DNA of 54,975 bases from a bacterium. GTDB taxonomy: Bacteria; Patescibacteriota; Microgenomatia; UBA12405. Where the stretch lies: positions 1-54,975 of the forward strand of contig JAKAFM010000005.1 of assembly GCA_021817905.1 (NCBI GenBank), in the 5' to 3' direction. The position numbers and the translations under genes were made by a program. The notes under the pieces were generated by a model. The model was not told the origin of the DNA and searched no databases. It worked only from the letters and a program-made list of their open reading frames with translations. Below, piece by piece: positions 2,843 through 29,061 of this stretch; the first letter of the stretch is position 1, and every line of letters starts with the position of its first letter.

Positions 2843-3923
2843 AATCGCCATTTATTACGATTGGCTAAATCAGTGGGGTGGAGCAGAACGTCTTCTTCTG
2901 GATCTTTTGTCAATTTTTCCTAAGGCCAAACTATATACCTCAGTTCATAACCCATCCGCGACTAAGTGGATTCCAGAAAATATTCCTGTCACAGCCTCAT
3001 TTTTGAATAAGATTCCCTTATTCAAAAAAAATTCAATTATTTCCGCGCTTTTTCAACCAATCGCTATTGAACAATTTCGTTTTAACCAATTTGACATCGT
3101 TATTTCATTAACGAGTATGCATGGCCAGTGTCTCTTGACCTCACCCCAAACATTACATATTTGTTATTGTCTAACTCCCAACCGTTACCTCTATCAGAAA
3201 AACTACTCATTTCTTATAAAACCTCTTATCACTTTTTACCAAAAAATAGACTATTGTTACGCTCAACGTCCCGATATATATTTGGCAATATCAAAAACAG
3301 TCCGTCACCGTATCCAAAAAAACTATCATCGATACGCCCAAATTATCAACCCTGGGGTTGATATTTCAATTTTTAAACCAGTACCAAACCCCACCAACGA
3401 CTATTTTCTAACTGTATCCCGACTTGTTCCCCACAAGAATGTTGATCTAGCTATTCTTTCGTGTCTCCAAACAAAAAATCGACTTAAAATTGTCAACACC
3501 GGACCAGAGTTACCACATCTCAAAAAAATTGCCAATGACAGCCCCCTAATAGAGTTTGTTGGTACAGTTTCACAAGCAAATCTCGTCAAACTCTATCAAA
3601 ATTGTCAAGCTCTCATTTGTCCTCAGCGTGAGGATTTTGGACTGGCCGCTCTTGAATCTCTTGCCTGCGGTCGACCGGTTATTGCCTTTAAAGAAGGTGG
3701 AATAGGGGAAATAGTTATTGACAATAAAAACGGCCTGCTTTTCTCTGAGCAAAGTGTTACCGCCCTAACCCAAACATTAAAAATATTTCCAAAAAATAAG
3801 TTCATTTCGCAACACTGTCGAGAACGTGCAATCCATTTTTCCAAAAATAAGTTTATGTTATCCTTTAAAAGGATTGTTCTAAATGTATGGAAAAAGTATC
3901 AACTTCCCACCACTACGTCATAA
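2820..3923 (+). CDS. glycosyltransferase family 4 (mannosyltransferase-like)
   Basis: GT-B enzyme. An upstream in-frame start at 2751 exists, but ATG 2820 (MKKILSPRIAIYYDWLNQWGGAERLL) begins exactly where family members begin, so it is preferred. The GGAERL motif near residue 20 and EDFGLAALESLACGRPVIAF near residue 270 are the usual acceptor-side and donor-binding motifs of WbaZ/mannosyl-type GT4 enzymes. It overlaps the previous gene by 23 bp. The next gene supplies the GDP-mannose enzyme, which makes mannose a reasonable but unproven donor. Confidence 0.85.
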   Translation: MKKILSPRIAIYYDWLNQWGGAERLLLDLLSIFPKAKLYTSVHNPSATKWIPENIPVTASFLNKIPLFKKNSIISALFQPIAIEQFRFNQFDIVISLTSMHGQCLLTSPQTLHICYCLTPNRYLYQKNYSFLIKPLITFYQKIDYCYAQRPDIYLAISKTVRHRIQKNYHRYAQIINPGVDISIFKPVPNPTNDYFLTVSRLVPHKNVDLAILSCLQTKNRLKIVNTGPELPHLKKIANDSPLIEFVGTVSQANLVKLYQNCQALICPQREDFGLAALESLACGRPVIAFKEGGIGEIVIDNKNGLLFSEQSVTALTQTLKIFPKNKFISQHCRERAIHFSKNKFMLSFKRIVLNVWKKYQLPTTTS

Positions 3924-24971: not shown

Positions 24972-26141
24972 ATGGCACTCATCAAAACGCTGGCCGGTCA
25001 GTTCGCTAAAATAAAAGTCGTCGGAGTCGGAGGTGGTGGCAATAATGCCGTCAATTCCATGATAGCTGAGGGTGGTATTAATGGCGTTGACTTTGTCGCT
25101 ATTAACACCGATTCTCAAGCACTGCTCAACTCCCAAGCTTCAATCAAAATCCAAATCGGTGAAAAATTAACCAAAGGTCTTGGTGCTGGATCAAATCCTC
25201 AAATAGGTCAAAAGGCTGCCGAGGAATCTCACGACAAAATTAAAGAAATACTTGAAGGTACCGACATGTTATTTATCACCGGCGGAATGGGCGGTGGAAC
25301 CTGCACTGGAGCCGCACCCATCATTGCTTCAATTGCCAAAAAAGAATTGGGGATTCTAACTATTGCTGTTGTTACCAAGCCATTTTTATTCGAAGGTACC
25401 CGACGAATGACCAATGCTGAAGAAGGCATCACTCAGCTTAAAAAAAACGTCGATACCATGATCGTCATTCCCAACCAAAAGGTAATGGAAGTGGTCAATA
25501 ATAAAGCCACTCTACAACAAGCGTTTAAAACTGCCGATTCCGTTTTAACCAAAGGCACCCGGGCAATTTCTGATCTGATTACTATTCCCGGACTCATTAA
25601 CCTAGATTTTGCCGATATAAAAACAGTTATGGCCAACGCTGGATCCGCCCTCATGGGAGTAGGGGAAGCCGAAGGAGAAAATAAAGCCTCAGAAGCTGTC
25701 CAAGCCGCCATTTATTCTCCATTACTCGAAGTCAGTGTTGACGGAGCTCGCGGAATTCTCATCAATATTGTCGGTGGCACTGATTTAACTATGGCCGAAA
25801 TCGAAGAGGCGGCCCACACCATTACCGAAAAAGCCTCTCCTGATGCCAACATTATCTTTGGCGCTTCAATTGATCCCAGCCTTAAAAATAGGATGAAAAT
25901 TACCGTGATTGCCACTGGCTTTGACGAATCACATCAACGAATTTACGGCCAAGTTAAAAAACCTGTCTTCACTCCTCAAACATCCACTCACGCGTCATCT
26001 TCCACTCCATCAAATTCCACCCCACCACAGCCTCTTGATCAGGACAAAATAACCGAATTATTGGGCAATAAAAATATTCCCGTCGGGGTTGATATCTCCG
26101 ATTCCTTCGACATCCCTTCTTTCTTAAAGAAAAACAGTTAA
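24972..26141 (+). CDS. ftsZ: cell division protein FtsZ
   Basis: Tubulin-like GTPase forming the division ring, 389 aa. GVGGGGNNAVNSM near residue 18, the tubulin signature region GGMGGGTCTGAAP at about 104-116 (GGGTGTG in most FtsZ, here GGGTCTG), NLDFADIKTVMANAG for the T7 synergy loop, and a flexible Ser/Pro-rich linker. The C-terminal conserved peptide SFDIPSFLKK, which binds FtsA, is intact. The stop codon lies inside a 14-bp palindrome next to the ileS leader promoter. Confidence 0.95.
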   Translation: MALIKTLAGQFAKIKVVGVGGGGNNAVNSMIAEGGINGVDFVAINTDSQALLNSQASIKIQIGEKLTKGLGAGSNPQIGQKAAEESHDKIKEILEGTDMLFITGGMGGGTCTGAAPIIASIAKKELGILTIAVVTKPFLFEGTRRMTNAEEGITQLKKNVDTMIVIPNQKVMEVVNNKATLQQAFKTADSVLTKGTRAISDLITIPGLINLDFADIKTVMANAGSALMGVGEAEGENKASEAVQAAIYSPLLEVSVDGARGILINIVGGTDLTMAEIEEAAHTITEKASPDANIIFGASIDPSLKNRMKITVIATGFDESHQRIYGQVKKPVFTPQTSTHASSSTPSNSTPPQPLDQDKITELLGNKNIPVGVDISDSFDIPSFLKKNS

Positions 26142-26147: not shown

Positions 26148-26153
26148 TATAAT
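26148..26153 (+). promoter_or_regulatory. ileS leader promoter -10 box (TATAAT)
   Basis: Perfect TATAAT ending 10 nt before the leader-peptide ATG, so the leader transcript would begin 3-5 nt before that ATG. No good -35 box is visible. Confidence 0.7.
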
Positions 26154-26163
26154 AAACCCAACC

Positions 26164-26196
26164 ATGACGTATCAATTCATTATTATTATTAACTAG
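26164..26196 (+). CDS. ileS leader peptide MTYQFIIIIN
   Basis: A ten-codon reading frame: ATG ACG TAT CAA TTC, four consecutive ATT (Ile) codons, AAC, then TAG. It is placed between a promoter and a terminator in front of the isoleucyl-tRNA synthetase gene, so the four Ile codons would make the ribosome sense charged tRNA-Ile, as leader peptides of amino-acid operons do. The codon run alone could arise from an ATT repeat in AT-rich DNA. The combination with position is what makes it convincing. Confidence 0.75.
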   Translation: MTYQFIIIIN

Positions 26197-26220
26197 GGCT
26201 CTGCTTCAAACCGCAGAGTC
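26197..26220 (+). other. leader hairpin after the stop codon
   Basis: An 8-bp stem: GGCTCTGC 26197-26204 pairs with GCAGAGTC 26213-26220 (one G-U), loop of 8 nt. It begins at the base after the leader stop, so a ribosome paused on the Ile codons or at the stop would cover different amounts of its 5' arm. It may act as a pause hairpin or as part of the switch. Confidence 0.65.
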
Positions 26221-26223
26221 ATT

Positions 26224-26252
26224 ATCCCGGTATCCACCGGGATTTTCTTTTT
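26224..26252 (+). terminator. intrinsic terminator (attenuator) before ileS
   Basis: ATCCCGG 26224-26230 pairs perfectly with CCGGGAT 26237-26243 (6-nt loop), followed by TTTCTTTTT. This is a classic Rho-independent terminator lying 7 nt before the ileS ATG, so ileS must be expressed by read-through. Confidence 0.85.
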
Positions 26253-26259
26253 AAATAAC

Positions 26260-29061
26260 ATGAACCAAACAAACTTTTTTCCCTCAATCTCCAACAATCC
26301 AGATTTTCCAGAACTAGAGCGTCAAATGCTTGAAACCTGGGAAAAGAACGATTTAGTTAACCTGTATCTTCACAAAAACGACCAATCCGATAAACGTTTT
26401 TCTTTTATCGATGGACCAATTACTGCCAACAACCCCATGGGAGTTCACCATGCTCGCGGAAGAACACTCAAAGATGTCATTCAACGATTTAAAAACGCCC
26501 AAGGTTTCGCCGAGCGTTTCCAAAACGGCTTTGACTGCCAAGGATTATGGGTCGAAGTCGAAGTCGAAAAAGAAGCCGGATTTAATTCTAAAAAAGATAT
26601 TCAAGAATTCGGGCTGGCCAATTTTACCAATGCCTGTCTTGCTCGAGTCGACAAATATGCCGCTATCCAGACTAAACAATCCCAACGATTAGGAATGTTT
26701 ATGGATTGGGAAAATTCTTACTACACCAACTCCCTTAACAATAATCTTTATATTTGGCATTTCTTAAAAATTGTCTATGAAAAAGGTTGGCTTTATCAAA
26801 AAGAAACCGCCACCACCTGGTGTCCACGCTGTGAAACCGGACTGTCTCAACATGAACAAGCTGATGGTTACAAAGATATTACCGATACTTCGGTATACCT
26901 AAAGTTTAAATTAAAAAATAAGCCTAACGAATATGTGCTTGCCTGGACAACCACACCCTGGACACTTTCTGCTAATGTTTTACTTGCCATTAACCCAGAT
27001 CATCAATATGTTAAGGCCAAACAGAACGACCAATATATCTATCTTGCTAAAGTTTCTGCCAACCGTCTAGGATTAACCGATTACCAACCGATTGATGCCA
27101 CCACACTCCTTGGACTTGAATATGACACCCTCTATGATATTCCCGCACAACTTGGCGTCAAACATACCATCGTCGAGTGGGATCAGGTCGACCCTATCCA
27201 AGGTTCAGGAGTTGTCCATATCGCGCCAGGATGTGGTCAAGAGGATTATGATTTAGGCAAAAAACTTGGTAGTGCCATGATTGGCCCCTTAAACGAACAA
27301 GGACACTTTATTGAAGGCTTCGGAGAATTAACCGGTAAATATGCCCACAATGTCGCCCCCATGGTTTTTGAATATCTCGAAAAATGTGGCGCCCTCTTTA
27401 AAACCGAACCCATCACACACCGCTACCCTCATTGCTGGCGATGCAAAACCAAATGTCTGTTCCGACTGGAAAAAAATTGGTTTATCAATACCGACGAAAT
27501 TCGCCCTCAATTAAAAGAAGCCGCTGCAAAAGTTAAGTGGCATCCAAAATATACACTCAGAAGAATGCTTAATTGGCTTGACAATATGGAAGATTGGATG
27601 ATTAGTCGTAAACGTTTTTATGGTCTCGCCCTGCCGTTTTATCCCTGCAAATGTGGACATTTAACCGTTGTTGGCAGCTTGGAAGAATTGAAAACTTTAG
27701 CCACTAATCCCGAAAAAATTAAGGGTTTAAAAAGCCTCCACCGTCCCTGGATCGACGAAATCACGATTACTTGTCCTCAATGCGGCCAAACCACCTCACG
27801 TGTAGCTGATGTCGGTGATTGCTGGTTAGATGCTGGTGTTGTTCCCTTTTCAACCCTTAAATATCTCGAGGATAAAGAATACTGGAAAAAATGGTTTCCT
27901 GCCGATTTTATTAGTGAAATGATCGAACAGGTCCGCCTTTGGTATTATTCCATGCTCTTTTTTAGTGTAATTTTTGAGGGTCGTTCGCCTTACCAAAACG
28001 TCCTAAGTTACACCGAAGTCAGAGACGAAAAAGGTGAACGTATGAGTAAAACCAAAAAAAACGGTATTGGTTTCGATGAGGCAGCTGAAAAAATGGGCGT
28101 TGACGCTATGCGCTGGCTTTACTGCCGACAAAAGTCTCACGCTGTAGTAAATTTTGGCTATAATATTGCCGACCAAGTCAAACGCGATTTTATCTTACTA
28201 TACTGGAATACATTCCGTTTCTTTACCACCCTTGCCAATAGTGAAAACTGGCAACCTCCCAAAAATCATCAGCCGTTTAAACCAGAAACCCTTCACCTCC
28301 TTGATCGCTGGATTTTGACCAGACTCGATCAGGCAATTACACTTACGACCAAATCGCTGGAAAGATTTGATACTACGACCAGTACTAAAACGCTTGAAGA
28401 ATATATCAATGACCTCTCGACTTGGTATATCCGTCGCTCGCGGGATCGCGCTGAATCTCTTCCGGTCCTTTATCACTGCCTAACCACCCTGACTTTACTC
28501 TGCGCCCCCTTTATTCCGTTCCTAACTGAAACGATTTACCAACAACTCCTGGGTAATAGCCAATACAATGTCCATGATTCCGTTCATTTACAATCCTGGC
28601 CTCAACCATCTACTAAAGTTGACACTACGCTTATTACTGCCATGAATCAGGCGAGAACCTATAGCCAATTAATTCACGGCCAACGTCAACTAGCCGGCAT
28701 TAAAATTAGGCAACCACTTGCCACAGCCACTATTTTTACATCACTTAACCTAAACCAAGAATTTCTCGACATCATAAAAGAAGAGACTAATGTCAAAAAA
28801 ATTGACATTGTTTCCAAAACGGGTGAAATTGAAGTCAAACTTGACACCACCATAACCGACGAGCTACGCCAAGAAGGGGAATATCGTGACCTGGTTCGTT
28901 CAATTCAGGTCATGCGAAAAGAACAACATTTTGATCTCAAAGATCACATAAAAATATTTGCCCCTGCTTGGCCAAAAACATTTGAACAGGCGATAAAAGA
29001 CAAAACGGTTGCCGATTCAATAACCCAGGCTGATAAACTATCCATAGAACATGTCAATTAG
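26260..29061 (+). CDS. ileS: isoleucyl-tRNA synthetase
   Basis: Charges tRNA-Ile; class I synthetase of 933 aa. The HIGH region reads NNPMGVHHARGRTLKD and the KMSKS region reads GERMSKTKKNG. Zinc-binding cysteines are visible in WCPRC near residue 188, KCGH and CPQC around 463-507. The editing domain lies between about 210 and 390 (AWTTTPWTL, HIAPGCGQEDYDLG), and the helical anticodon domain follows residue 650. The HIGH variant belongs, as I recall, to a recognised IleRS subgroup. Expression is probably set by the leader peptide and terminator upstream. No Shine-Dalgarno is evident. Confidence 0.9.
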   Translation: MNQTNFFPSISNNPDFPELERQMLETWEKNDLVNLYLHKNDQSDKRFSFIDGPITANNPMGVHHARGRTLKDVIQRFKNAQGFAERFQNGFDCQGLWVEVEVEKEAGFNSKKDIQEFGLANFTNACLARVDKYAAIQTKQSQRLGMFMDWENSYYTNSLNNNLYIWHFLKIVYEKGWLYQKETATTWCPRCETGLSQHEQADGYKDITDTSVYLKFKLKNKPNEYVLAWTTTPWTLSANVLLAINPDHQYVKAKQNDQYIYLAKVSANRLGLTDYQPIDATTLLGLEYDTLYDIPAQLGVKHTIVEWDQVDPIQGSGVVHIAPGCGQEDYDLGKKLGSAMIGPLNEQGHFIEGFGELTGKYAHNVAPMVFEYLEKCGALFKTEPITHRYPHCWRCKTKCLFRLEKNWFINTDEIRPQLKEAAAKVKWHPKYTLRRMLNWLDNMEDWMISRKRFYGLALPFYPCKCGHLTVVGSLEELKTLATNPEKIKGLKSLHRPWIDEITITCPQCGQTTSRVADVGDCWLDAGVVPFSTLKYLEDKEYWKKWFPADFISEMIEQVRLWYYSMLFFSVIFEGRSPYQNVLSYTEVRDEKGERMSKTKKNGIGFDEAAEKMGVDAMRWLYCRQKSHAVVNFGYNIADQVKRDFILLYWNTFRFFTTLANSENWQPPKNHQPFKPETLHLLDRWILTRLDQAITLTTKSLERFDTTTSTKTLEEYINDLSTWYIRRSRDRAESLPVLYHCLTTLTLLCAPFIPFLTETIYQQLLGNSQYNVHDSVHLQSWPQPSTKVDTTLITAMNQARTYSQLIHGQRQLAGIKIRQPLATATIFTSLNLNQEFLDIIKEETNVKKIDIVSKTGEIEVKLDTTITDELRQEGEYRDLVRSIQVMRKEQHFDLKDHIKIFAPAWPKTFEQAIKDKTVADSITQADKLSIEHVN

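Follow-up and report, generated by a model that had tools for sequence, protein, structure and literature searches.

The closest described counterparts of the element considered here are the classical leader-peptide attenuators of Proteobacteria (trp, his, ilv and pheST), in which a ribosome translating a short ORF with cognate codons is the sensor, a hairpin lies by the leader stop codon, and transcription may end at an intrinsic terminator. Attenuators of leuS and trpS, described as classical, have been predicted in Streptomyces (PMC1262725), and one for a hisS paralogue has been predicted in Bacillus (PMC2965389). These are all predictions, and they make attenuation of synthetase genes less rare than an earlier note on this DNA had claimed. 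A different arrangement is seen in pyrBI of E. coli, where a ribosome close to RNA polymerase prevents the terminator from folding without the help of an alternative RNA structure, and where, in vitro, termination at pyrL becomes less efficient when a ribosome trails polymerase (PMC10135430). Within the literature searched, which mostly omits subscription journals, we found no report of a leader peptide for ileS and, as the earlier note had stated, none of leader-peptide attenuation in Patescibacteria.

The window, by which we mean the whole 54,975-nt stretch of DNA analyzed, corresponds to contig C30; the genome totals 817 kb, and the closest named relatives of its IleRS come from Candidatus Shapirobacteria (Patescibacteria). 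On its forward strand, a unit of about 100 nt lies between ftsZ (24972..26141; TIGR00065) and ileS (26260..29061, with the ATG at 26260; TIGR00392, 654 bits, above the cut-off), which encodes isoleucyl-tRNA synthetase and is the gene proposed to be regulated. The unit opens with a -10 promoter element, TATAAT, preceded by TG (26148..26153); the start codon of a leader ORF follows 10 nt past the end of this element, from which we predict an almost leaderless leader mRNA. The ORF (26164..26196; ATG ACG TAT CAA TTC ATT ATT ATT ATT AAC TAG) encodes MTYQFIIIIN and ends in TAG, and its four consecutive Ile codons, (ATT)4 at 26179..26190, are the proposed sensing codons. A hairpin, referred to below as hairpin 1 and proposed to sense the position of the ribosome, begins at the first base past the stop codon (26197..26220; GGCTCTGC-TTCAAACC-GCAGAGTC) and has 8 pairs, one of them G-U. 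Separated from it by a 3-nt spacer (26221..26223) is an intrinsic terminator (26224..26252; ATCCCGGT-ATCC-ACCGGGAT, then TTTCTTTTT) made up of an 8-bp stem (26224-26243) and a U-tract (26244-26252), so that the leader stop lies 27 nt before the terminator stem. The leader peptide, hairpin and terminator that the earlier note had read before ileS were each found in place, exact to the base. On folding, the leader region was more stable than all 200 of its dinucleotide shuffles (z = -4.6).

Comparison of ileS upstream regions across the family and order showed the unit in 17 genomes of the same order, arranged as -10 element, nearly leaderless ORF, Ile codons, one codon, stop, hairpin 1, terminator and ileS. 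Examples of the leaders, each followed by a stop codon, are MYLVNKIIIR, MLHSVKIIIK, MGQTKTIIII and MTCLSIITIN, as well as MKTGFKQIIIIF from a different family within the order. Since these 17 genomes are relatives of one another, the counts drawn from them are not independent: Ile fills 55 of the 85 positions in the last five leader codons, versus 8% genome-wide, and is spelled ATT, ATA or ATC 38, 11 and 6 times, respectively; the last Ile codon stands one codon ahead of the stop in 15 leaders and adjoins it in two; TATAAT is 6-12 nt before the leader start in most; the spacer (to AUCC) is 3-9 nt; and the terminator occurs in all 17. It is conserved jointly with the Ile-codon ORF, with 17 genomes having both and 11 relatives having neither, the latter lacking a terminator close upstream of ileS as well as the leader. 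The unit precedes two deeply separate IleRS types and needs 6 changes on the IleRS tree, and it has undergone several losses or gains, a point against the attenuator reading. Some genomes of the order have a second, very different IleRS type, approximately 36% identical (L056, L057, L058 and L116). Conservation of the unit in relatives and the occurrence of leuS and pheS leaders with cognate codons in the same genome bear out the reading of the leader as an ileS attenuator, and we consider it very probable, on sequence grounds, that it senses the charging of tRNA-Ile.

Could the arrangement be fortuitous, consisting of an ordinary ftsZ terminator and a chance short ORF that regulate nothing? 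The terminator does sit between ftsZ and ileS, and the 11 relatives manage without the unit. However, we find this explanation hardly credible, given that the ORF, hairpin and terminator occur together in 17 genomes, that the unit also precedes ileS where the neighbor is not ftsZ, and that the site is unique in its genome. A strict scan of the whole 817-kb genome for a short ORF with a run of at least three identical residues, a hairpin at the stop and a terminator returned a single match, the ileS site. A degenerate pattern (promoter, start, Ile3, X and UAG) applied to 44 genomes of the order gave 15 matches, 12 of them before ileS, and the reversed control gave 1. Eight matches inspected closely among 330 genomes of the class outside the order had no ileS downstream and look like chance, and an Rfam search with the window and the leader loci yielded no leader family that reached threshold. 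In the window the leader frame stays open past TAG; in-frame read-through into ileS was considered, but this feature is not kept in L007 and was taken as chance. In the ileS upstream regions of many genomes of the order, a start codon frequently follows the -10 box at a distance of just 6-12 nt, an indication that the order commonly makes nearly leaderless mRNAs.

The arms of hairpin 1 covary strongly across the 17 genomes, with pair types changing on both sides at nearly every position. When arms were swapped between genomes, 51% of positions could pair, as compared with 100% for a genome's own arms, a value that is true by construction since the helices were taken from folds. The ends of the hairpin are fixed and its length is variable (20-37 nt in the family), and neither its sequence nor its loops are conserved. 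UAG ends 16 of the 17 leaders, versus 22% of long genes in the window's genome, because the G of UAG belongs to the hairpin 1 stem in most members, usually as its first pair. Hairpin 1 is also the only structure that depends on the position of the ribosome in folds of all 17 ileS units with the footprint blocked; it is predicted to be folded in every state but the one with the ribosome at the stop codon, and in the two leaders whose last Ile codon touches the stop it is partly melted at that codon as well. For these folds nothing was allowed to pair up to 8 nt past the first base of the A site, a footprint that, like the distance threshold used below, comes from E. coli. The choice of footprint rests on the position of the ribosomal helicase.

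In its cognate-codon leader ORF, its intrinsic terminator and its structure dependent on ribosome position, the ileS unit agrees with the classical four-segment attenuator. What it lacks is an antiterminator that excludes the terminator by base pairing. The probability of the terminator is 0.99-1.00 in every ribosome state in 17 of 17 units, no alternative fold that displaces it was found in any state, and neither antiterminator nor pseudoknot-like pairing rose above chance in the 17 units. The best pairing of the stretch past the stop with the 5' arm of the terminator amounts to -1.9 to -7.3 kcal/mol in the 17 units (z -1.0 to +1.5 against shuffles), as compared with -8.8 to -16.3 kcal/mol in the leuS and pheS leaders. 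The earlier note had doubted that hairpin 1 and the terminator exclude one another and that switching follows the four-segment model; on folds and chance-level complementarity, both doubts are justified, the former for all 17 members. In some members the run of Ile codons can be seen by eye to pair with the spacer or the U-tract, a feature that we set aside as inconsistent. One reason for the missing antiterminator may be that AUU, AUA and AUC offer no possibility of a GC-rich pairing partner.

The same fold and complementarity tests do detect a switch in two further synthetase leaders of the window's genome. The leuS leader, MFILGLSRLLLTH and stop, is located at L075:14970-15092 (contig C17) and has counterparts in G002, G003, G010, G023 and G024. 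The pheS leader, MLQPLSFSFSFRI and stop, lies past rplT on the minus strand of L066 (pheS start at 3756), with counterparts in G005, G020, G021, G022 and G027; in G005 the cognate codons are present and no terminator was found. Both the gene order and the leader position of the pheS leader are as in E. coli pheST. In most of these leaders, with no ribosome present, a G-rich segment past the stop is predicted to pair with a pyrimidine-rich leader sequence, and the fold contains the terminator. A ribosome stalled early leaves the G-rich segment to pair with the 5' arm of the terminator, and a ribosome at the stop covers it. With the footprint blocked, the probability of the terminator drops to 0.00-0.03 where the switch is clearest (leuS of G010 and G023, pheS of G022) and is 0.98-0.99 with the ribosome at the stop, and the fall is partial or small in the other leuS and pheS leaders. 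The leuS leader of G003 was left out of the footprint folds and included in the complementarity test with its terminator placed by hand. In these models the leuS and pheS leaders are the textbook switch, with a mutually exclusive antiterminator. They are like the ileS leaders in that the run of cognate codons ends 1-2 codons before the stop, with structured RNA directly past the stop, a terminator and the synthetase gene following, and they differ in that the segment past the stop pairs with the 5' arm of the terminator.

It is conceivable that ileS, too, has a classical switch, one whose antiterminator, pseudoknot or kinetic intermediate is invisible to nearest-neighbor folding. The use of a classical switch by leuS and pheS of the same genome would favor such an explanation, as would a weak ACCG/CGGT pairing in the window. 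Chance-level pairing in 17 of 17 ileS units and the terminator probabilities given above make it quite improbable.

Other sites in the order have related features. Upstream of pheS in L146, L147, L154, L163 and others there is no Phe leader, and a G-rich segment and a terminator come immediately past the rplT stop; these could pair in an attenuator-like manner, as if rplT were the leader. Near 11450 of L111, upstream of proS in the window's genome, a short ORF with two Pro codons is followed by a strong C-rich/G-rich terminator. This ORF is a possible attenuator candidate with few Pro codons, and no counterpart was found in relatives. Terminator-like hairpins also occur directly before nusA-like and fusA-like genes (near 1188 of L111 and 16731 of L112).

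If the ileS leader has no antiterminator, what is the mechanism by which a stalled ribosome would affect termination? One possibility, to which we give somewhat less than even weight, is a switch based on distance, in which the hairpin past the stop would be folded only as long as the ribosome is held at Ile codons, bringing ribosome and terminator closer together and sterically blocking termination. Transcription would begin a few bases ahead of the leader ORF. With the leader untranslated, or with the ribosome having read on to the stop codon, polymerase would halt at the terminator; with charged tRNA-Ile scarce, the ribosome would stall on the Ile codons, polymerase would pass the terminator, and more IleRS would be made, which is the direction of attenuation that we infer. 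No choice between two base-paired structures would be involved. Hairpin 1 starts at the downstream edge of a ribosome positioned on the last Ile codon, and it would be folded with the ribosome on the Ile codons and melted with the ribosome on the stop. By looping out RNA, the folded hairpin would leave few single-stranded nucleotides between the stalled ribosome and the terminator, and the resulting crowding would keep the terminator hairpin from closing in the exit channel of polymerase.

The lengths involved are consistent with such a switch. A ribosome on the last Ile codon, with hairpin 1 folded, leaves scarcely more single-stranded RNA up to the terminator than the spacer of 3-9 nt. For a ribosome at the stop, the stretch measured from the stop is 24-39 nt in nearly all members (27 in the window), and termination would proceed. 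In E. coli, a terminator 28 nt past a stop codon is approximately 90% efficient and one 5 nt past it is less than 10% efficient, since the ribosome occupies RNA required for the hairpin (PMC4824070). By analogy, the ileS path lengths would lie on either side of the E. coli threshold. Collided ribosome-polymerase complexes have also been modeled as incompatible with termination hairpins (PMC7858274). Two features are less favorable: a ribosome that stalls already at the first Ile codon has some 6-9 nt of additional free RNA ahead of it, so the steric block may be incomplete, and the variation of the spacer counts against the distance switch. Comparison of the genomes establishes an Ile run in a fixed place, a hairpin at a fixed distance, a nearby terminator and the cognate gene; for ribosome-mediated attenuation of ileS and the distance switch taken together, with the switch as the part that we infer, we judge the chances to be about even.

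An alternative mechanism, which we regard as rather unlikely, is that hairpin 1 itself, a few nucleotides upstream, clashes with the exit channel of polymerase and hinders the last pairs of the terminator, and that a ribosome at the stop permits termination by melting it. The short, fixed spacer fits this explanation, and hairpin 1 holds the same place past the stop as the leuS and pheS antiterminators. Spacers of 7-9 nt, however, may suffice to avoid a clash, and the mechanism predicts full expression without translation, whereas the leuS and pheS folds with no ribosome have the terminator.

The first hairpin of known attenuators is a pause hairpin. Hairpin 1 could likewise be an element for polymerase pausing or RNA stability by which polymerase and the ribosome stay synchronized, with an unknown factor acting as antiterminator, and it would be approximately 11 nt behind a polymerase transcribing the 5' arm of the terminator. 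A pause alone leaves read-through unexplained, though, and the unconserved sequence and loops of the hairpin argue against a specific RNA-binding protein; this account seems unlikely to us. The leader might also act in the opposite sense, with both hairpins ending transcription and a ribosome at the stop weakening their effect, such that ileS is on when Ile is plentiful. Hairpin clusters have been proposed as terminators (PMC8355165), and hairpin 1 alone responds to ribosome position. We hold a tandem terminator to be very improbable, as the ileS terminator is strong by itself and synthetase attenuators, like leuS and pheS here, have the reverse sense.

The ileS genes of other bacteria may be controlled by tRNA-Ile charging through T-box leaders, and in this regard the two systems are alike. 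The window's leader differs in having no T-box features: neither the T-box covariance model (RF00230) nor a conserved T-box sequence had a match in the window, and we rejected a T-box identity. T-box-like leaders were seen by eye before ileS in Dojkabacteria, where L023 matched RF00230 with an E value of 3e-4, below the curated cut-off. Upstream of proS in L208 and L211 (G021 and G027) there is a T-box-like motif, GGTGGTACCACG, and T-box-like elements and leader peptides may both occur in the order.

Patescibacteria are a vast and hardly cultivated group in which amino-acid sensing is little known, and most must take amino acids from hosts or neighbors. The leaders described here point to leader-peptide attenuation of at least three synthetases (Ile, Leu and Phe) in one order, and T-box-like elements precede ileS in another lineage of Patescibacteria. 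The ileS unit provides a natural comparative case for asking whether attenuation requires mutually exclusive RNA structures. With the predicted cases in Streptomyces and Bacillus it has in common a cognate-codon leader peptide ahead of a synthetase gene, the phyla and synthetases being different. From pyrBI it differs in the signal, which there is UTP acting through polymerase pausing, and in geometry, since the pyrBI ribosome follows polymerase into the terminator and a leader ORF of that type extends into or past it, while the ileS ORF ends approximately 27 nt before the terminator (24-39 nt in the family). Set beside the classical attenuators, the unit has the same cognate-codon ORF, ribosome sensor, intrinsic terminator and hairpin by the leader stop, and it differs in its nearly leaderless ORF, in the gene, ileS, and in having no antiterminator that excludes the terminator. 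Judged from its predicted structures, the ileS unit resembles leader-peptide attenuators yet lacks the mutually exclusive structures by which they are defined.
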